A DNA stretch of 35,629 nucleotides from a virus. The translations under genes were made by a program, and so were the position numbers. The notes under the pieces are model-generated. The model saw nothing but the letters and a program-made list of their open reading frames with translations, was not told where the DNA came from and did not search any database. Each line of letters opens with the position of its first letter. Positions within the stretch are counted from its first letter, which is position 1. This document shows, one piece after another, positions 1,166-29,563 of this stretch. The DNA lies in IMG/VR virus record IMGVR_UViG_3300030104_006802, positions 1 through 35,629 of that record; one strand, written 5' to 3'.

Positions 1166-4100
1166 TTATCCAAGCTCTAGAATCCAAATAGCACCACCAC
1201 CACCTGCTGTTCCAGTATGTGAACATCCACCATCATCACCACTAGATGCAGTCATACCACCTCTTCCACCTTGACCATAATCACCTGCAAAGAATCTAGT
1301 ACCACCATGTGAGCCATTAGCACCTCTCTGGCCAGAATTAGCACCAGCACCTCCATTACCACCAGATGCGGTAGCTCTGTTACTAGTAGGACCAAAGTAA
1401 CTTGTGCCTCCATTACCACCAGCAGATGGACTATCGTCACAACTACCTACTGCATGTAAACTACCACCAGCACCTACGGAGTATGGAATACTTTGGATTC
1501 CACTTAATTGCTCCCGATAATTGAAATTCTGGCCACCATTACCACCCCAACCACCTAATCCAGTACCCCGTGCATTACCTCCAGCTCCTCCACCACCATT
1601 AACAATGGCGACTAAGTGGGTACACCAACTCTGAGTAGCAAAATTACCACTTCCTGAATTCAAAACAGTTACTCTTACTCTATCAGTATCTCCTACACCT
1701 AAGAAGGCCTTTATAGCAGCTGCAGTTCCATGTCTAACCGTATTATCATTATTAGTTTCACATAATACCTTAGTAACACCACTTCCTGCATCAACTGCAT
1801 GTATTCTTGAACCTGATGCACTGGTATCAAACTTATCAGCAAACATGGTTCCAGTGACATGAGCACCATCACTTCGAGTATCAAGTCTAGAATTTCCTCC
1901 ATGATAAAGGGTTGTTGCACCACCCCATCCACCTTGTAGTACGTTGCGAATAGTACCATTAACATTTTCTCTAATAAGGATTCCAGTTCCAGTAGTTGAA
2001 CCTAACTCTATCGTCAAATTAGCATTACCACCTTGTGTTTTAATTATATTTCTGTTTCTATAATGAGAAACACCGTTGCTTGAAGATCCGTGGAATATTT
2101 GTAAATCATTACCAGCACCAAATTGTAATGTATCATCAGTACCAAACGTAGTAGCATCAGAAAAACTAATATTCTTACCATTAGTATCAAGGTGGCCACC
2201 TAATTGTGGTGATGTATCTGTAATAAGAGCAGTATTAACTAATCTCCAAACATTATCACCAGCTAGGAAATAAGTACTAGTTCTATTATTATTAGTTCCA
2301 AGATAATTCTGATGAATTGTTCCAGCATTTATGTTATCAGCATTTCTATAGAAAGAACCTTCATTATTATCTAATTTATCAGCATTTAATCCAGAAGCAG
2401 GGCCGTCATTACCTACGTGCCAAACAGTATGGTTACTTGACGTAACCTTCATTGCAGTAGTGTGCCAAACACAACTACTACCTATAGATCCCTGAGGCAC
2501 TCCATTTTGACACCAAACCATCATGTGACCGCCACCCATCGTGCCGCCAGTGGTGTTATTAGTATGCTTGTAAGCTAGTCCATATAAACCGCCGAAGTTT
2601 GTTCCAGAGGAATGGTTCTTATAAGCAGTACCCATAGACCAAATATGATCGGTTTTGTAAGAATCGTAAGTTCCAAATATTCCGTTATGTCTAGCATTAG
2701 AAGTTAATGCTCCACTAAACGAATCATCTTGATCCGATCTTAATAAGCTTGCACCCTCAATATCATCAACTTTTTGTGCATTTATACCAAGTGCATTAAT
2801 ACTAGAAGCTGAAATTCCTAGTTGACCAAATGATGGATTATTACCTTCATGATAGATTGCATAACTAGCAGCACCCATCGACCATCCACCTACGGATAGT
2901 TTATTAGTACCAGCATCTAATCCAAAATAAAGGGCATAGTCACTACCAGTGTGGAATGCCATAAAGGCATCCTTACCAGAACCAGTATTATAAATTTCTA
3001 TACAACCTTGTGAACCAGATGCAGTATTAATAGCATCCCAATTATTTGTGGCATTAGCAGTAAATTGAATCCGATGATTAGCTACATCACCAGTATCAGA
3101 TCTTAAGAAACTTGCACTATCAATATTATCAAGTAATGCAGCATTTGATGCAGTACCAGTTAAATTACCAGTAACATTACCAGTTACATTACCTGTGATA
3201 TTTCCACTAAATGTTCCTGTGGTTGTTCCAGATAATGTGACACCTGCTTGAGTAGTTGTTAATCTTACGCCTGGATTAGTTCCAGCCCAATAAAGTTCTA
3301 CTGCGGAATCATCATAACAAATAATACTCTCTTCATCATTTCTAGCTCTAATATAGATATTTGAATTATCATTAGAACCACCATTCTGAATATAAATATG
3401 ACCTTTATAGTTTGCAAGTGCGAAATTACCATCATCATGCCAAAGTTGTGTATCACCACTACCACCAAGTCCTAACGTAGCATTATCTCCAAGACGAAGT
3501 TGATTTGATGATTTATCCCATATTGCACTATAATTATCACCAGTAAAGTTCACATCAGCATTGAATGTAGAAGCTTCAGCAACAGTCAATCCATCTAATG
3601 TTGTAGCTCCATCAACATCCAAAGTACCTGAAATAGTGGCATTACTATTAACATCAAGAGGCCCTTCAACATTTACATCACCAGTACCATTTGGATCAAG
3701 ACTTATTGATCCATTAGTATTTGTTGATTGAATATTATTACCATTAATTCTAATATTATCAACATCTGCTAGTCCAACAACTGTAAGATTTCCTGCAATA
3801 TCAGTCTTATCTAATGTTGTGTCACCATCAACATCTAAGTTACCTGAAATAGTGGCGTTTGAATTAGCATCAAGTGTAGTAAACTTACCTGTAGATCTTG
3901 AAGCAGAACCGATTGCTGTTCCATCAATATTTCCAGCGTTAATATCAACAGTTGCTAATGTTGCAGTTCCTGAAACATCAACATTGGCATTAGCATCTAT
4001 ATTTCCAGAGAATGTAGATATACCTGTTGTGATTTGTTCTGTTGCATGTAAGTGAGGTATATTTGTATTCTTTAATGAACTGAATGTAGATTCACCTTGA

Positions 4101-7100
4101 ACAGTTAAGTTACCACTTTGATCTCCACTACTATAATTACTAGCACGATCTAAAGTAAGATTATAAATGGTAGCAGGAGCAAAAACGAAAAGAGATTTCG
4201 AAACTGTTCCTTGTTCAATTGAAATTGTGCCAGGAACAGTAAGTTCATTCCTAATTCGTAAATTATGAAATACTGCCTGTGATGGGATTTTATTAATAAC
4301 AGTAATTTGATCACCTTGAATCGAGACCTCATTACCATGATTACCTTTAGTGAACGTAATACCAGTAACTTCTGTTTCACTACTATCTGGATCCAATACT
4401 ACCCATGCTCTATCCAGTTCTATTTTTGTACCAGTTACTCTTACTACTTTATATACACCATTGAACGCATTAATGTTACCATTACCAGTAGAAATGGTAA
4501 TAACACAACCGCCTGGTCCACCAGTACCAATTGAGTTATTACCACTTGGCAAACCATGATTAGAACTGGTTATTAATAAATTCTTAGCTACAGTAGCACT
4601 ACCAACAGTCTCACTACCTACTACATTAATACTACCAGTAAATGACCCAGTAACATTTGCAGCACCATTACCACCCAACCATTCCATATAATCATCCTTA
4701 CTTACAGTGATTCTATCAACACCATTACCGTCAGCAGCATAAGAGAATCCAGTAACGTCTGATAATTCACCATCAGCAGAACTGGAATAAACAAGTTTAT
4801 TCAATGATAGATCACTAATCTTAGCAGTATCTGCAACTAATGAATCAATATTTGCAGTTCCATCAAGATATAAATCTTTGAATTCTACACCAGATGCACC
4901 TAAATCTACTGCATCATCAGTAAGAGGTACGAGGTGTCCATCAAATCTACCAACAGGAGTAATACTATCTGTAGCAGCATTACCAAGGTTTATATCACCA
5001 TTAAGATCTGTTTGTCCACTTGCAGATAAGGTTGTAAAAGCACCAGAAGATGCTGAGTTAGCACCAACAGTAGCACCATCAATTGTACCACCATTAATGT
5101 CTGCTGTATCAGCAACCAATGAATCAATATTTGCAGTACCATCAAGATAAAGGTCTCTCCATTCTAATCCAGAAGCACCTAAGTCTCTAGCGCCATCAGT
5201 AGAAGGAACTAAGTTAGTATCATATCTACCAATTGCACTGATAGTATCAGCTGCACCATCACCAAGATTTATCTCACCGTTTAAATTTACCGTTCCACTA
5301 AATGTAGATACTCCAGTATTAGTAAGGTTATCGGTTTCTAATGTTCCAATAATATTAACGCCATCATCCTTAGTCTCTAATCGTTTTGTATTATCATGGT
5401 ACAGATCTACTGAGCCATTATGATTAACAATTATACTTTCTTCACCACTATTACCTTGAATTTTTACAGAACCACCACTTGTTGCGTTTCTAATGAATAA
5501 TGTATTATTGCCAGGAGAATCTATAAAACCTGACGATCCATCAGAGTAAATCTGAATATCTCCAGTTCCTGCACCAAATGTTGCCTTAGTATTATCAGCA
5601 AACTCAAGAGCGTTATCTGACTTATCCCATAATATATCCCTACCCGCTGTTGCTCCATCAAAATGAACATTATTATTAAAGGTTGTAATACCTACAGCCT
5701 CATCACTACTATCAAATATGACTCCTTTTGTAAATGTAGTAATACCAGTAACATTCAAACTACCATTAACTAACAATCTACCGATTGTCACGTCAGTGAA
5801 TAGTGTAGTACCAAGGAATGTACTAATACCAGTCATTAAGAGGTAATCAGCAACTACAGCACCACGAACATCAAGAGCACCACCATAACCTTGTAGTACA
5901 CCATTAGAATCTGTTTTACCAGCACGACTTGCAGATGTAGATCCAAGACCAACTATACCAAGACTGAGTTGATCTCTGTCTTTCTCAGTTGAAATAAGAC
6001 CAAACTGTTTCCATCCTTGTGATGTGTAAACCCATCCAAGATGATCACCAAAATCAGGATTAGCCTTGAATAGAATATCTCCAAGAGTTGAGGATCCTGT
6101 TGGTGGAGTTGCAGTATAAGTGATAGTTCTGGATGGAGATAAACCACCAGTAAGATCAATAGAAACAAACTCAGCACCATCATCTGATGAAGAAGTTAAT
6201 TTCTTAGTTACTGTAGTAGGAGCATTAATCCTAACAGTTGTATTATTATTACCATCAACAATTAAACCTTCTCTAATATTAACACTATCAAAGATAACAT
6301 CAAGTCTTCCACCTGCAGAATCACCTTCTGCTCCAGATCCAGTAGTAGTTGGAATAGGAATATTGAATGTGGCTTCTGTACCATCTTGTGAGTTAACAAC
6401 CTTGTTACCTATATGGAAGTCACCTGCATCATTAACACCAGTATAAACAACAGAACCACCATTATCTGTAGTAGATTGTGCAAGGAAATTTTCTTCTCTA
6501 GTAAGAATTCTATCCTGTTTCTCTGGGAAACTGGTTGAATAGTTACCAGGCCCAAATCCAAGATACTCAAATGTATGACCAGATGCACGAAGAACAGATG
6601 CCCTTCTCTTTTCAACAGGTAACACACGAATTTTCTTAGCAAGAGAACTTGCAAGATGAGTTTCTGCTCTAGAACCTAACTGTCCTCTAAGAACAGTAGC
6701 CGCATTACTTGAGAAATTAGCTGAAACACGTACAATTTCATCATCAATTTGTATATAATCACCTTTAACAAATCCTGAAGAATCTGTTAGTGTTAATGTA
6801 GTATTAACAGCAGTCAAAGCAGCATTACTTAAAGTTGTACTAATACCAACAGCTAATGGAACTTGTCTTTCAGCAAGTTTTTCATCACCTACAACAATTT
6901 TACCACCTTTTGCACCATATAAAACAGGAAGAACCTGAGCCTTTCCACCTGATGTTGTATAAGTTGCAGGAGTAAGTTTCTCAGTAAATTTGAATGAGAA
7001 TTGTGTAGTACTATTCTTCTCAAATACAAGATGATCTCCATTGTATATGGTTTGTGCAGCACCAACAATACTAAATGAGTTATTAACACTCAATCCATGA

Positions 7101-10100
7101 GGTTCATCTGTAGTTACTACTGCGATTCCTGTATCAGGATTAGAGTAAGCTATAGAATTAATTCTAGGTGCATTACCTGCCAACATGAAGAATCCAGTAT
7201 GGATACCAGCAGTAGTTGTACTATGAATACCTGCAGGTTTTCCACTTGGTAATTGATAAGTAATACTCTTAGGAGTTACTGAAGTAACAGTATGAATACC
7301 ATTATATCCAGAATTATATCTATTACCAACAGTACCAACACCAACTATCTGAATTGCATCACCAATATTACTATGAATTATAGAAACAGTTACTGTTGCA
7401 TTACCAGCACCAGCCTTTACATTAAGAGTATTACCCTTAGTATATCCAGCACCACCATCAACAATCTCAACAGCAGTTACTACTCCAGCACCATTAACAG
7501 TTACATTAGCAGTTGCACCATGTCCAGATCCACCTGATAACTCAACGTTATAAAGAATACCTGCACTACCATATCCACTTCCTCCAGCAGCTAATGTAAG
7601 TTTAATGATTGTATTGAAATTATGTTCAACGTTAGTCCATACTGTAGTAATACCATTAGTATGACTTGCAGCACCAGTTACTGCATAACCAATTTGATTA
7701 CCAACAATAAAGTTATTTGTAAATTCCTTACTTAAACTACCTCTAAGATCATTAGTAACAACTTTACCGATTGGAGTATTAAGTGCAAAACTTGCAGCAT
7801 GGGAAGGATCCATACTAAAGTTATCAGCATCATACTGTGGATAAAGATCAGTTATATTTTGATTAAACTTAGAATTAGTATACTCATTTACCGTAGGAGA
7901 TATACTACTATCAACACAAATCAAATGATATACACCATCTTGTCTTTGATAATCATGAGACTTAATGGTTTCTGCACGATATACAGTAAATGTATCTTTA
8001 TGTTTACGTCTACTTACTGTGGGAAGATTATCACTTCTATTGGTACTTGTATCTGTAAATGTGCCAGGATCTGTATCATAGAATAATACTTGAAATCCTT
8101 TAGCACTAGTAATACCAACAATATCTCTTACAATATTATATCCTTCATTTATAGTACCAGCTGAATTACCACCACTTCTAATCTTCTTAAACTGTACATC
8201 ATCACCCATAATTAAATTATGAGGTTTCTCAGTAACAACAGTTGTAATACCAGTGTTTGGATCTCTGTCAACACTCTTTACAATACGAAGATTTCTCTGA
8301 ACCGTTACATTAGGAATATCATTAGTAAATTCACCAGATGTAGATACACCAACAGTACTTGATTCCTGTAAAGTATAGCCAGGAATTGGTGGTCTTGCAT
8401 CAGAAGATTCTTTAGGTATTACATACCTAAGTCTATAAATCTTATCATTAAGAGATCTAGTATCTTCCTTTCTTCTGATAAATGTCTTACCAGTCCTTGG
8501 TCCTAATTGTGCAGAATTACTATTAACAGCAGCATATACTTCATTGGAAGTACCTTTAACTTGGATATACCAGTTACCCTTAGTAGTATCATATTGTATT
8601 GGATGTCCTAAATCGCCAGGTTTCTTATCACTTACTCGTGATTCAATAGTAAGAACACCACCTTTATTATTATTAATTGCAATAATATTTCCAGATCCAC
8701 CAAGTAATGCATCATTCTTATTTCTTGCAAGTTTTATTTGTGTATTTGTTAAAGAACTTTCTTGAGTAGAAGCATTAGTTACTGCATAGTAAATAACATT
8801 AGTATCAATTCCGTCTGGAAGGAATCCATCATCAGAAATTACACGAATACTTTCACCAGCAGATAACTGATGAACAGAAGTTAAAGTTATCTTACTATCA
8901 GTTATACTATTAATTACACCAGTTCTTTCTACATCATAAACCTTCATAGTGGAATAATCAGATCCACCAGTCTTATTCTGCATTATGATTTCAGCACTAT
9001 ATGTACCAACACCAGCAATACTTACATTTAATAAATCAGGATTTGTACGTATAATACCATCTACTCCAGCTTTTGCACCAATTCTATATCCATTAATTAC
9101 ATGTACGGGAGGAATAGCTGGATCAGTAAATCCATCTAAAAAGATGTGTTCTTGATCAACAGTTGAAGCTAAAGTCTTAGTAACATCAATAGCTTCCCAC
9201 TCAACCGAAATATTTTTCTGGAATTGACTTTCGGGTGGAATAATATGAGTAATATATCCTCTATTATCTTTAGCAAATGAAGAATCTTTAAATCCCTTTG
9301 CATTTAAAGATACAGAACCAAAGTTGGAATTGGAGTTAGTGATAGACATATCACCACCACTTTCACTAGTGAAATGCTCAGAGAAACCAACCGCAAACAC
9401 AGAAACTGCCTGAACAAATGCATTATTAGATGCTTTAATATGGGCGTTTTTATATGTTGGTCTATACCGTGAAGATCCATTCAAATAAAGTGGTTTTTCA
9501 CTAGAAGGTGCAGTACCATTATTATCATACTGTCCAGTAGTCTTATTATAAACTAGGAATGCATTATTGTCTTTCTGCAATCCAATACCAGTAAACTGAG
9601 CAACAAGCATGGATTTAAATCCAGATGCCTTAGATCCATCAGCATGGAGACCACACATACCATAAGCAGATCTTAAGGAACAGTGGAAAATATATGGAGA
9701 AGATCCTGTTACATTGTCAGTATCAGGTACTATAGTTTCAACACCACCAATAGTAGGAGTTGCATCCGTTGGAGTACTTGAAGCCTCATAAGTAAACCGA
9801 CGTTCACTACTAACACCAGTTACAGTGAAGTTACCATTGTAGATATTTGGGAATGTAGTAACACCAGCTATCCTAATAGCACTATCCACAACAAGCCCAT
9901 GAGATGTTGAAGTATCTACAGTTATTGTTGAAGTTGGAGTTGAACCATCACCTGCAATAATCTGACTAACTGAAATATCATTAACAACAACAGGTCCAGT
10001 AATCTCAAACTCAGGCAACTTAGGTTGCATGTCAGTATTAACTGGGAAGTCAGCTATTCCTCTACCAGAATCATCACCAAAGGCTCTCTGAACCTTGTGG

Positions 10101-10834
10101 AAATACATTTGAAGATCGGTAGTGGTAGTTGAAGTACCAATACCTACACCATTTACACCATCAGCATACTCAAATACTGTTAATTTATGGTGAGAAAATT
10201 GTGGAAGATATTTATTTGTTGTATAATCCTTATAGCAAGACTCTTTAGGATTAGCATCAAAGAAACTTACCGCCCAAAAATGACATCCACCAGTTAAACG
10301 GAATACTGCAGACTTATTAATTTGTGCATTTTCAGGATCTGGTACGAATTTAGGTCTTATTTTTGTCTTACGTACATCATAGCCAGCTATAGATACACCA
10401 CGGGGTACAATTACACCACCTTCTACAGAGTTATACTTATATAATTCATTCGTTGGATCATCAAGATTATAGTTAGTAGAATCAGATAATTCAGGAAAAT
10501 TAGCATTTGAAATAATATTACCTTGTCTATCCCTGAATAATGCTGCAGAAGCATTATCTGGATCTGTAACTACATTTAATCCAGGCCTATTATCAATCTC
10601 ATGTTCGCCTGGGTATAATAATACTGTCGTTCTATCAAATTTATCATTATCCTGACCAATTTGGTACGAAAATCTAGCAGCTTCAAGTAGAGCTCTCTGG
10701 ATTGTCTTAAATGGTCTGGTTAATGAATTACCTTGGTTTTCAATACTATCTGTAGCATCCAAATCAGTTGGATTTACATATAGTATGTTACCTTCAACAT
10801 TCTTTAGGAAATTTTCTAGTCTACTTAAAGGCAT
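1166..10834 (-). CDS. Giant tail fibre / structural protein, 3222 aa
   Basis: This is the largest gene of the window. The N-terminus (SRLENFLKNVEGNILYVNP, then RPFKTIQRALLEAARFS) matches the common start of cyanophage fibre proteins and suggests a pectin-lyase-like beta-helix over roughly residues 1-560. Around 1080-1130 there is a glycine-rich GGxGY module. Residues about 1700-3050 are built from repeated fibre modules such as DLYLDGTANIDSLVADTA (twice), NATISGxLDVDGxTTLD (twice) and a GNVTG run. The last ~170 residues are glycine-rich with GGNGG motifs and end AIWILELG, resembling the glycine-rich tips of phage adhesins. It probably binds the host surface. A stop codon seven bases upstream forces the ATG at 10834; a late promoter lies at 10870-10877 and the ribosome binding site is weak. 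Confidence 0.85.
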   Translation of the reverse strand: MPLSRLENFLKNVEGNILYVNPTDLDATDSIENQGNSLTRPFKTIQRALLEAARFSYQIGQDNDKFDRTTVLLYPGEHEIDNRPGLNVVTDPDNASAALFRDRQGNIISNANFPELSDSTNYNLDDPTNELYKYNSVEGGVIVPRGVSIAGYDVRKTKIRPKFVPDPENAQINKSAVFRLTGGCHFWAVSFFDANPKESCYKDYTTNKYLPQFSHHKLTVFEYADGVNGVGIGTSTTTTDLQMYFHKVQRAFGDDSGRGIADFPVNTDMQPKLPEFEITGPVVVNDISVSQIIAGDGSTPTSTITVDTSTSHGLVVDSAIRIAGVTTFPNIYNGNFTVTGVSSERRFTYEASSTPTDATPTIGGVETIVPDTDNVTGSSPYIFHCSLRSAYGMCGLHADGSKASGFKSMLVAQFTGIGLQKDNNAFLVYNKTTGQYDNNGTAPSSEKPLYLNGSSRYRPTYKNAHIKASNNAFVQAVSVFAVGFSEHFTSESGGDMSITNSNSNFGSVSLNAKGFKDSSFAKDNRGYITHIIPPESQFQKNISVEWEAIDVTKTLASTVDQEHIFLDGFTDPAIPPVHVINGYRIGAKAGVDGIIRTNPDLLNVSIAGVGTYSAEIIMQNKTGGSDYSTMKVYDVERTGVINSITDSKITLTSVHQLSAGESIRVISDDGFLPDGIDTNVIYYAVTNASTQESSLTNTQIKLARNKNDALLGGSGNIIAINNNKGGVLTIESRVSDKKPGDLGHPIQYDTTKGNWYIQVKGTSNEVYAAVNSNSAQLGPRTGKTFIRRKEDTRSLNDKIYRLRYVIPKESSDARPPIPGYTLQESSTVGVSTSGEFTNDIPNVTVQRNLRIVKSVDRDPNTGITTVVTEKPHNLIMGDDVQFKKIRSGGNSAGTINEGYNIVRDIVGITSAKGFQVLFYDTDPGTFTDTSTNRSDNLPTVSRRKHKDTFTVYRAETIKSHDYQRQDGVYHLICVDSSISPTVNEYTNSKFNQNITDLYPQYDADNFSMDPSHAASFALNTPIGKVVTNDLRGSLSKEFTNNFIVGNQIGYAVTGAASHTNGITTVWTNVEHNFNTIIKLTLAAGGSGYGSAGILYNVELSGGSGHGATANVTVNGAGVVTAVEIVDGGAGYTKGNTLNVKAGAGNATVTVSIIHSNIGDAIQIVGVGTVGNRYNSGYNGIHTVTSVTPKSITYQLPSGKPAGIHSTTTAGIHTGFFMLAGNAPRINSIAYSNPDTGIAVVTTDEPHGLSVNNSFSIVGAAQTIYNGDHLVFEKNSTTQFSFKFTEKLTPATYTTSGGKAQVLPVLYGAKGGKIVVGDEKLAERQVPLAVGISTTLSNAALTAVNTTLTLTDSSGFVKGDYIQIDDEIVRVSANFSSNAATVLRGQLGSRAETHLASSLAKKIRVLPVEKRRASVLRASGHTFEYLGFGPGNYSTSFPEKQDRILTREENFLAQSTTDNGGSVVYTGVNDAGDFHIGNKVVNSQDGTEATFNIPIPTTTGSGAEGDSAGGRLDVIFDSVNIREGLIVDGNNNTTVRINAPTTVTKKLTSSSDDGAEFVSIDLTGGLSPSRTITYTATPPTGSSTLGDILFKANPDFGDHLGWVYTSQGWKQFGLISTEKDRDQLSLGIVGLGSTSASRAGKTDSNGVLQGYGGALDVRGAVVADYLLMTGISTFLGTTLFTDVTIGRLLVNGSLNVTGITTFTKGVIFDSSDEAVGITTFNNNVHFDGATAGRDILWDKSDNALEFADNTKATFGAGTGDIQIYSDGSSGFIDSPGNNTLFIRNATSGGSVKIQGNSGEESIIVNHNGSVDLYHDNTKRLETKDDGVNIIGTLETDNLTNTGVSTFSGTVNLNGEINLGDGAADTISAIGRYDTNLVPSTDGARDLGASGLEWRDLYLDGTANIDSLVADTADINGGTIDGATVGANSASSGAFTTLSASGQTDLNGDINLGNAATDSITPVGRFDGHLVPLTDDAVDLGASGVEFKDLYLDGTANIDSLVADTAKISDLSLNKLVYSSSADGELSDVTGFSYAADGNGVDRITVSKDDYMEWLGGNGAANVTGSFTGSINVVGSETVGSATVAKNLLITSSNHGLPSGNNSIGTGGPGGCVITISTGNGNINAFNGVYKVVRVTGTKIELDRAWVVLDPDSSETEVTGITFTKGNHGNEVSIQGDQITVINKIPSQAVFHNLRIRNELTVPGTISIEQGTVSKSLFVFAPATIYNLTLDRASNYSSGDQSGNLTVQGESTFSSLKNTNIPHLHATEQITTGISTFSGNIDANANVDVSGTATLATVDINAGNIDGTAIGSASRSTGKFTTLDANSNATISGNLDVDGDTTLDKTDIAGNLTVVGLADVDNIRINGNNIQSTNTNGSISLDPNGTGDVNVEGPLDVNSNATISGTLDVDGATTLDGLTVAEASTFNADVNFTGDNYSAIWDKSSNQLRLGDNATLGLGGSGDTQLWHDDGNFALANYKGHIYIQNGGSNDNSNIYIRARNDEESIICYDDSAVELYWAGTNPGVRLTTTQAGVTLSGTTTGTFSGNITGNVTGNVTGNLTGTASNAALLDNIDSASFLRSDTGDVANHRIQFTANATNNWDAINTASGSQGCIEIYNTGSGKDAFMAFHTGSDYALYFGLDAGTNKLSVGGWSMGAASYAIYHEGNNPSFGQLGISASSINALGINAQKVDDIEGASLLRSDQDDSFSGALTSNARHNGIFGTYDSYKTDHIWSMGTAYKNHSSGTNFGGLYGLAYKHTNNTTGGTMGGGHMMVWCQNGVPQGSIGSSCVWHTTAMKVTSSNHTVWHVGNDGPASGLNADKLDNNEGSFYRNADNINAGTIHQNYLGTNNNRTSTYFLAGDNVWRLVNTALITDTSPQLGGHLDTNGKNISFSDATTFGTDDTLQFGAGNDLQIFHGSSSNGVSHYRNRNIIKTQGGNANLTIELGSTTGTGILIRENVNGTIRNVLQGGWGGATTLYHGGNSRLDTRSDGAHVTGTMFADKFDTSASGSRIHAVDAGSGVTKVLCETNNDNTVRHGTAAAIKAFLGVGDTDRVRVTVLNSGSGNFATQSWCTHLVAIVNGGGGAGGNARGTGLGGWGGNGGQNFNYREQLSGIQSIPYSVGAGGSLHAVGSCDDSPSAGGNGGTSYFGPTSNRATASGGNGGAGANSGQRGANGSHGGTRFFAGDYGQGGRGGMTASSGDDGGCSHTGTAGGGGAIWILELG
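3148..3200 (-). repeat. Short in-frame repeat coding GNVTG
   Basis: A 12-base unit encoding G-N-(V/L)-T is repeated in tandem about four times, with slight variation, inside the tail fibre gene (protein SGNITGNVTGNVTGNLTG). It probably spaces two fibre modules. Such short repeats can change number by slippage. Confidence 0.6.
3600..3875 (-). repeat. Two diverged copies of a fibre module (NATISGxLDVDGxTTLD)
   Basis: Positions about 3609-3656 and 3827-3875 are close DNA copies, roughly 218 bases apart, and encode the same module with small changes. They lie in the repetitive shaft of the tail fibre and look like an older internal duplication. Confidence 0.6.
4827..5384 (-). repeat. Tandem 279-bp repeat in the tail fibre gene
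   Basis: Copy one begins at 4827 and copy two at 5106, an offset of 279 bases or 93 residues, so the frame is kept. Both encode a block around VGRFD or IGRYD, DLGASG, then DLYLDGTANIDSLVADTA. The match is strong over about 180 bases and weaker beyond. This maps to fibre residues of about 1817-2002. Confidence 0.75.
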
Positions 10835-10900: not shown

Positions 10901-10971
10901 AGCGGGAGCTGAGATTCGAACTCAGGACAGAAGTTTGGAAAACTCGTATGTTACCCCTACACCACTCCCGC
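10901..10971 (-). tRNA. tRNA-Gly (anticodon UCC)
   Basis: A complete 71-base cloverleaf reads on the minus strand. The acceptor stem is GCGGGAG with CTCCCGC, followed by discriminator T. The D stem is GTGT/ACAT. The anticodon stem is CGAGT/ACTTC with a C-C mismatch at its base, and its loop TTTCCAA gives anticodon UCC (reads GGA). The variable loop is TGTC. The T stem is CTGAG/CTCAG with loop TTCGAAT. CCA is not encoded. It lies directly upstream of the glycine-rich giant fibre and overlaps the 3' end of the 76-aa gene by 15 bases. Confidence 0.93.
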
Positions 10972-29223: not shown

Positions 29224-29252
29224 ATTATACCATAAAAAAAGGAGGGGATCAA
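29224..29252 (-). promoter_or_regulatory. Sigma70-type promoter overlapping a terminator (TTGATC, 17, TATAAT)
   Basis: -10 TATAAT at 29224-29229 is perfect. -35 TTGATC at 29247-29252, with a 17-base spacer, lies in the loop of the terminator hairpin at 29234-29261. Transcription would begin near 29217, the ATG of the 45-aa gene. Confidence 0.65.
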
Positions 29253-29261
29253 CCCCTCCTT
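29234..29261 (-). terminator. Strong terminator after the riboswitch-controlled peptide gene
   Basis: A 9-bp stem AAGGAGGGG/CCCCTCCTT with a 5-base loop is followed on the minus strand by a run of seven T. It ends the short transcript carrying the glutamine riboswitches and the 44-aa gene. Confidence 0.9.
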
Positions 29262-29268
29262 GATTTTA

Positions 29269-29403
29269 TTATGCAGAGACTACACAATACTGTGTTTCCT
29301 CTGAGTGCTTGATCCCCCTGTAAGTAAGATCAGCTTTGATTTTCTGACAAGCTTTCTTGTCATTGGTGTCATACTGGACACCCCTGTATGTGACTAGTGC
29401 CAT
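29269..29403 (-). CDS. DUF4278-like small peptide under riboswitch control, 44 aa
   Basis: The peptide starts MALVTYRGVQYDTN and contains a second copy of the motif, DLTYRGIKHSE, so it seems to be an internal repeat of T-Y-R-G units, as in the small cyanobacterial DUF4278 family. The ATG at 29403 has AGGAG (29412-29416) eight bases upstream. A longer frame to 29544 is open but would run through the riboswitch and is rejected. The gene is alone between its own promoter with tandem glutamine aptamers and a strong terminator. Its role is unknown. By analogy with other peptides behind this RNA it may affect nitrogen metabolism. Confidence 0.8.
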   Translation of the reverse strand: MALVTYRGVQYDTNDKKACQKIKADLTYRGIKHSEETQYCVVSA

Positions 29404-29433
29404 TGGATTTACTCCTAAAGTAGTTGGGTTTTT

Positions 29434-29483
29434 AATCCGTTCCTTTAGTCGGCTTTTGCGTCCTCCGAAGAGGATGAACGATT
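29434..29483 (-). promoter_or_regulatory. Glutamine riboswitch (glnA / Downstream-peptide RNA type), gene-proximal copy
   Basis: The minus strand shows AATCGTTC, a hairpin around CATCCTC-TTCG-GAGGACG, then CAAAAGCCGACTAAAGGAACG and GGATT. The outer stem pairs AATC/GATT and GTTC/GAAC. CGTTCATCC..GGACG..CCGACT.AAGGAACG is the conserved core I remember for the glutamine-binding glnA and Downstream-peptide RNAs of cyanobacteria. Its last bases GGATT could instead pair with AATCC at 29405-29409 next to the start codon. Ligand binding may therefore free the ribosome binding site (inference). Confidence 0.8.
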
Positions 29484-29528
29484 CCGTTCCGAGTCGGCTT
29501 ACTTGCGTCCCTATCGGGATGAACGATT
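29481..29528 (-). promoter_or_regulatory. Glutamine riboswitch (glnA / Downstream-peptide RNA type), promoter-proximal copy
   Basis: The second copy abuts the first. AATCGTTC is followed by a hairpin CATCCC-GATA-GGGACG, then CAAGTAAGCCGACTC and GGAACGG. It keeps the AAGTAAGCC segment that the other copy has shortened, but lacks two bases in the AAAGGAACG segment that the other copy keeps. Transcription should start right at this element (promoter at 29535-29563). Confidence 0.78.
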
Positions 29529-29534
29529 GTGTTA

Positions 29535-29563
29535 ATACTAACACAGTTATATTATATAGTCAA
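29535..29563 (-). promoter_or_regulatory. Promoter of the riboswitch unit (TTGACT, 17, TAGTAT)
   Basis: -35 TTGACT at 29558-29563, a 17-base spacer and -10 TAGTAT at 29535-29540 on the minus strand. The expected start of transcription falls at the 5' edge of the first aptamer. Confidence 0.65.

Follow-up and report, generated by a model that had tools for sequence, protein, structure and literature searches.

The locus under study lies in a 35.6-kb virus record (IMG/VR, IMGVR_UViG_3300030104_006802), of which the whole stretch of 35,629 nucleotides was analysed and is called the window here. The neighbours of the site are genes of a T4-like cyanophage, encoding a PhoH-like protein, thymidylate synthase, a ssDNA-binding protein, a baseplate hub protein and a tail lysozyme. 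Elsewhere the window holds a tRNA-Gly (tcc) gene (10901-10971) and, on the minus strand, a very long ORF of 3222 aa (1166-10834). On the minus strand of the site the order GTTCATCC, hairpin, GACGCAA, GCCGACT and GGAACG occurs twice, as copy 1 (29525-29485) and copy 2 (29480-29438), and this repeat pattern is not a matter of chance since the DNA is common to 121 phage records. The first-pass annotation had described the two repeats in that motif order, and the promoter, AGGAG sequence, 44-aa ORF and terminator that it listed around them all have counterparts here, the promoter as two overlapping promoter-like sites. From upstream to downstream the features are:

29579-29551, minus strand: promoter-like TTTAAA-17-TATAAT overlapping the following one, a consensus match only
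29535-29563, minus strand: promoter-like TTGACT-17-TAGTAT, a consensus match only
29528-29545, minus strand: palindrome TGTGTTA-GTAT-TAACACA around the -10, abutting the aptamer
29521-29525, minus strand: putative outer P1, 5' strand CGUUC (copy 1)
29508-29519, minus strand: P2 hairpin of copy 1, UCCC-GAUA-GGGA, whose loop may carry an ORF in relatives
29500-29507, minus strand: J2/3 of copy 1, CGCAAGUA, with the 5' half of the E-loop and the C of the linchpin pair
29492-29498, minus strand: putative shared P3, 5' strand GCCGACU, with X = U29492
29476-29489, minus strand: inner P1 hairpin GAACG-GAAU-CGUUC, made of the copy 1 3' strand and the copy 2 5' strand
29461-29474, minus strand: P2 hairpin of copy 2, UCCUC...GAGGA, whose loop may carry an ORF in relatives
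29448-29454, minus strand: putative shared P3, 3' strand AGCCGAC, with Y = A29454
29443-29447, minus strand: J3/1, UAAAG, the 3' half of the E-loop and part of a possible anti-SD CUAAAG
29438-29442, minus strand: putative outer P1, 3' strand GAACG (copy 2); the next G (29437) is the linchpin partner
29412-29420, minus strand: CUUUAGGAG, anti-SD partner CUUUAG overlapping the ribosome binding site, with modest support
29416-29412, minus strand: ribosome binding site AGGAG
29269-29403, minus strand: gene of a 44-aa DUF4278 peptide with two YRG motifs
29239-29261, minus strand: intrinsic-terminator-like hairpin, 9-bp stem and T-run

A palindrome with arms of at least 6 precedes the aptamer in 85 of 104 phage leaders, against about 11 expected from shuffles. 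Its arms differ among most of these leaders yet stay complementary; an operator and a 5' RNA hairpin are the candidate explanations.

The repeats had earlier been assigned to the glutamine-binding glnA and Downstream-peptide RNAs. The assignment held for copy 2, which in a cmscan search matched Glutamine (RF01739) at 29482-29434 with 36.7 bits (gathering cut-off 35; E 1.5e-4 over the window). Copy 1 on its own (29527-29483, restricted scan) stayed under that cut-off with 26.2 bits in RF01739. For Glutamine-II (Downstream-peptide, RF01704) the two copies scored 26.4 and 21.9 bits under a cut-off of 33. A match to RF00166 (E 0.024) lay far under the cut-off of that family and was set aside as chance. 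When whole doublets of two relatives (L009 and L071) were aligned with Infernal, each gave a single RF01739 match, of 43.6 and 41.7 bits, with 38-40 nt inserted in the loop of P3. The phage RNA is derived from type I and the host RNAs are of type II. The contig of L009 also bears a PhotoRC-II RNA (1021-1116, 57.1 bits).

One helix of the canonical aptamer has GCAAGUA with the 5' strand of P3 on one side and URAAG with the 3' strand of P3 on the other, as in the crystallised construct (PMC5393176). The phage element resembles glutamine-I (the glnA motif) in its core, CGUUCA-P2-CGNAAGUA-P3-GAAGGAACG, in its P1/P2/P3 junction and in its linchpin pair, but it is split over two repeats. Copy 1 holds GCAAGUA and the 5' strand of P3 and copy 2 holds the 3' strand of P3 and URAAG, each repeat having only half of a canonical P3 and E-loop, and a junction of P1, P2 and P3 in which AAGUA faces GAA at the P3 base is found only across the copies. 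Pairing between the repeats can be followed at X, the base before CGGAACG in copy 1, and Y, the third base after CGCA in copy 2. X and Y are Watson-Crick partners in all 124 phage doublets (GC 62, UA 39, AU 23), counted as they come with relatives included. The same is true of 38 out of 38 distinct core combinations, where shuffling gave a mean of 16.5 and a maximum of 28, and the mutual information of X and Y, 1.58 bits, is the highest among all core positions. The 80 loci that were retrieved via the loop protein described below, not via the RNA pattern, all have GC, and they represent one clade that adds no pair types. For 26 sequences with a long P3 the covariation of the cross-copy structure was 0.189, against 0.055 in shuffled alignments (0/500).

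The folding calculations point the same way. With no structure supplied, RNAalifold run on 41 doublets formed an outer P1 by joining the 5' strand of copy 1 to the 3' strand of copy 2, and paired the two inner strands with one another as an inner P1, a hairpin that has a pairing probability of 0.97 in the window. In 35 of 36 and 52 of 52 leaders (87/88) the cross-copy fold surpasses the tandem one in stability, the average difference being 2.7 kcal/mol. The gap between the phage repeats is 3-6 nt, nearly always 3-5, which matches the need of a hairpin loop. P1 itself is invariant across the doublets and therefore cannot separate cross-copy from within-copy pairing; a search for P1 strand variants that would do so yielded one relevant locus, the sequence of which ends before copy 2. 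The P3 of the window carries two A-C mismatches.

The linchpin pair gives a further test. In the crystal structure, G23 reportedly pairs with the base that follows P1. Of 127 canonical single aptamers, 125 carry G-C at the two linchpin positions; phage doublets mostly have C-G instead. The outer linchpin pair is kept in 145 of 145 doublets and the inner one in 142 of 145; in the three misses (L032, L079 and L102) the script was anchored on the CGGA of CGGACGCA and not on the core. A few loci have the bases exchanged. In L106 and S-CREM1 copy 1 carries G and the base following copy 2 is C; in L020 and L042 it is copy 2 that carries G, and the base following copy 1 is C in L020 and U in L042. 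Each of the four retains the two cross-copy pairs and loses the two within-copy ones, and L116 shows the swapped pattern by eye. Such informative swaps are few, probably two events, and all of them point to cross-copy pairing. In the crystal structure, G22 and G23 make long-range contacts in the bound state (PMC5393176). Because each junction keeps its linchpin pair, the RNA likely has two glutamine sites that share one helix. The inner junction, which is without the GUA and GAA motifs, is a candidate site, and ligand binding may be absent there.

Since the cross-copy P3, the linchpin, RNAalifold, the energies and the Rfam alignment agree, the element can be read as one glutamine-I aptamer with a circularly permuted second aptamer inside its P3. 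The doublet is better explained as such a single interlocked structure than as two independent tandem aptamers. The proposal of the first-pass annotation, a pair of aptamers with an outer stem of its own around each, is accordingly not supported: the data favour stems between the copies, and P3, the E-loop halves and the linchpin all match between and not within them. We consider it fairly probable that the whole explanation, a composite riboswitch of the glutamine-I type built from two interleaved half-repeats with the function proposed below, is correct.

The X-Y and linchpin covariation would also be expected if two aptamers, each with its own P1, were docked through a kissing P3 plus tertiary pairs between the copies. 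That arrangement requires a pseudoknot, whereas the nested fold has the same pairs, is more stable and fits the glnA consensus directly; we regard the kissing arrangement as unlikely.

In many relatives the element also harbours a small gene. An ORF was found in a P2 loop of 78 of the 124 doublets (59 in copy 2, 17 in copy 1 and 2 in both), the isolates with ORFs in both loops being P-HM2 and P-SSM4; as the loci were gathered with a pattern that needs one short-loop repeat, doublets with both loops occupied are under-counted. The other 46, the window included, are without loop ORF. Examples of the former are L007 (6869-7030), L130 and L125. All of the 80 inserts found open with an ATG, 9-13 nt beyond the beginning of CGTTCA, and with few exceptions they stop inside or at the aptamer core. 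Synonymous changes dominate in the ORFs (median dN/dS 0.17 and 0.20), and the P2 stem is kept across them: among the first six positions 89-91% are paired, compared with 29-61% after sliding. Retrieval by the loop protein alone returned both aptamer halves in 80 of 80 cases and the downstream YRG gene in 79 of 80. The loop proteins, annotated as hypothetical in several isolates, have a common hydrophobic N-terminus and two invariant cysteines and match phrog_504, 6471 or 13397; a Pfam search of the loop ORFs gave zero matches, and one of the proteins is predicted to be a helical hairpin (mean pLDDT 80.6). L085 and L119, with and without the copy 2 loop ORF, encode an identical DUF4278 peptide, which means a recent gain or loss of the ORF. 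On a tree of DUF4278 peptides, a weak tree of short sequences, there are 24 and 14 changes for an ORF in loop 2 and loop 1, respectively. In a triple array (L043) an unpaired copy-1 type repeat is followed by a repeat with loop ORF and a copy-2 repeat, with A-U at X-Y. If true, the loop ORFs would make these metabolite aptamers unusual in housing a conserved protein gene.

The downstream gene encodes a peptide of 44 aa that matches DUF4278 only (PF14105; residues 5-32), passing the cut-off narrowly with 25.8 against 25.3 bits; a sequence search of the PDB with it gave zero matches. Its two YRG motifs are invariant in 18 aligned relatives, and the phage RNA nearly always precedes this one nitrogen-linked peptide family. 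Glutamine-II precedes short two-YRG peptides as well, in marine picocyanobacteria: such a peptide follows the type-II riboswitch in 11 of 12 marine host loci, one locus being without a pattern match. Two single canonical glutamine-I aptamers on viral contigs (L081, 698-751, 60.3 bits; L094, 548-599, 52.0 bits) precede a different YRG protein. A further likeness is with IF17 (gifB), which has DUF4278 in its N-terminal part and a glutamine riboswitch in its leader. However, the phage peptide is without the IF7-like C-terminal inhibitory part and its conserved arginines. The DUF4278 part is dispensable for the inhibition of glutamine synthetase by IF17 (PMC6316151), and therefore the earlier suggestion of a glutamine synthetase inhibitor is doubtful and unsupported for the phage peptide. 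A role in nitrogen control is likely.

How such an RNA would act can be sketched as follows. In the outer three-way junction the 5' strand of copy 1 would join the 3' strand of copy 2 as P1, next to copy 1's P2 and the P3 that bridges the copies; P3 would be capped by a permuted second junction made of the GAACG-loop-CGUUC hairpin and the P2 of copy 2. In the free RNA, CURAAG could pair with CUUYAG, which overlaps the ribosome binding site. Glutamine would stabilise both junctions, and the bound fold, engaging URAAG and P1, would withdraw CURAAG from CUUYAG and turn on translation of the DUF4278 peptide, a relative of the peptides that host cells make when nitrogen is plentiful. At the varying position of the anti-SD, A never stands opposite C, and fully Watson-Crick partners number 12 against 7.3 after shuffling (0.0025), a modest covariation. 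In the folding calculations an imposed aptamer did not raise the predicted accessibility of the SD (mean 0.42 free, 0.40 bound), and in the window it rose only from 0.12 to 0.27. As the folding energies show no change at the SD, the ON direction proposed here leans mainly on precedent, glutamine riboswitches of both type I and type II being activators of expression on glutamine (PMC6316151). What the analysis establishes is the sequence, the covariation across the copies, the family of the peptide and the distribution among phages; glutamine binding, the number of sites, ON-switching and the role of the peptide are inferred. The more general part of the first-pass annotation is supported: an RNA of the glutamine-aptamer family stands before a small peptide gene in a T4-like cyanophage, and it probably senses the nitrogen state of the host.

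For the loop-ORF loci the same folding would have a second consequence. With the copy 2 loop ORFs P2 extends into the AUG in 50 of 59 cases, and because it reaches this codon the bound RNA should hide the start of the inner gene. The start and stop codons are both situated within the aptamer, and a fold induced by glutamine would thus close the inner gene and open the DUF4278 gene at the same time. This extended scheme, an interlocked two-site sensor with loops that serve as gene slots and one RNA that controls two phage genes in opposite directions, is offered tentatively as a possibility.

The accessibility calculations without a clear switch, and loop ORFs that come and go, would also suit a decayed or non-switching RNA that is kept because it stabilises the mRNA or serves as a recombination spot, and not for glutamine sensing. 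We give this little probability, as some 145 distinct doublets show strict conservation of the ligand-core bases and the linchpin pairs and nearly always precede the same peptide family.

Earlier reports cover glutamine riboswitches of cyanophages and of other phages, as well as tandem glutamine riboswitches more generally. A glnA element was reported in cyanophage S-CREM1 (PMC9964418), where the entry spans 99 nt and both copies, and a glutamine riboswitch in methylophage Melnitz (PMC9004378); the passages on them list a cis-regulatory element only, without mention of an interlocked fold or a loop ORF. Tandem glutamine riboswitches are known (157 doublets and 4 triplets, PMC9481103; Weinberg 2010), and the phage RNA shares with those of SAR86 and other loci the two repeats per leader. 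Each phage repeat has its own CGUUC and GAACG. An ordinary tandem of two independent glutamine aptamers, each with its own P1 and together giving a steeper response, is nevertheless very unlikely here. Neither phage copy has a whole P3 or E-loop, in every genuine case that sets the two readings apart the linchpin is broken within the copies, and the stability and X-Y pairing described above are against it. In the bacterial tandem loci retrieved each copy has a full P3 and the gaps are 6-24 nt, whereas the phage repeats share P3. Several contigs of SAR86 or other marine bacteria in our collection (among others L220, L226, L262, L268 and L269) carry tandem glutamine-I elements with a complete P3 per copy. 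The composite was not found in 386 cyanobacterial genomes under strict filters; the 13 matches were all 49-62 nt long, and the ten that were fetched are single aptamers. Finally, a longer protein of 91 aa read through the repeats in the frame from 29544 is practically untenable, since this frame, open in the window, is open in only 5 of 45 relatives and the leader lengths occupy all three frames, which refutes it as a general reading.

A search of the accessible literature, as an incomplete check of priority, gave no report of the interlocked fold or the loop ORFs. To our knowledge, no described riboswitch couples two ligand sites via a permuted aptamer inside a helix. If the interlocked reading is right, the "tandem" glutamine riboswitches of marine phages would be one pseudo-symmetric RNA in which a helix encloses a permuted aptamer. 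It would also make testable how cyanophages read the nitrogen state of the host and answer it with a copy of the peptide that the host makes in nitrogen excess.
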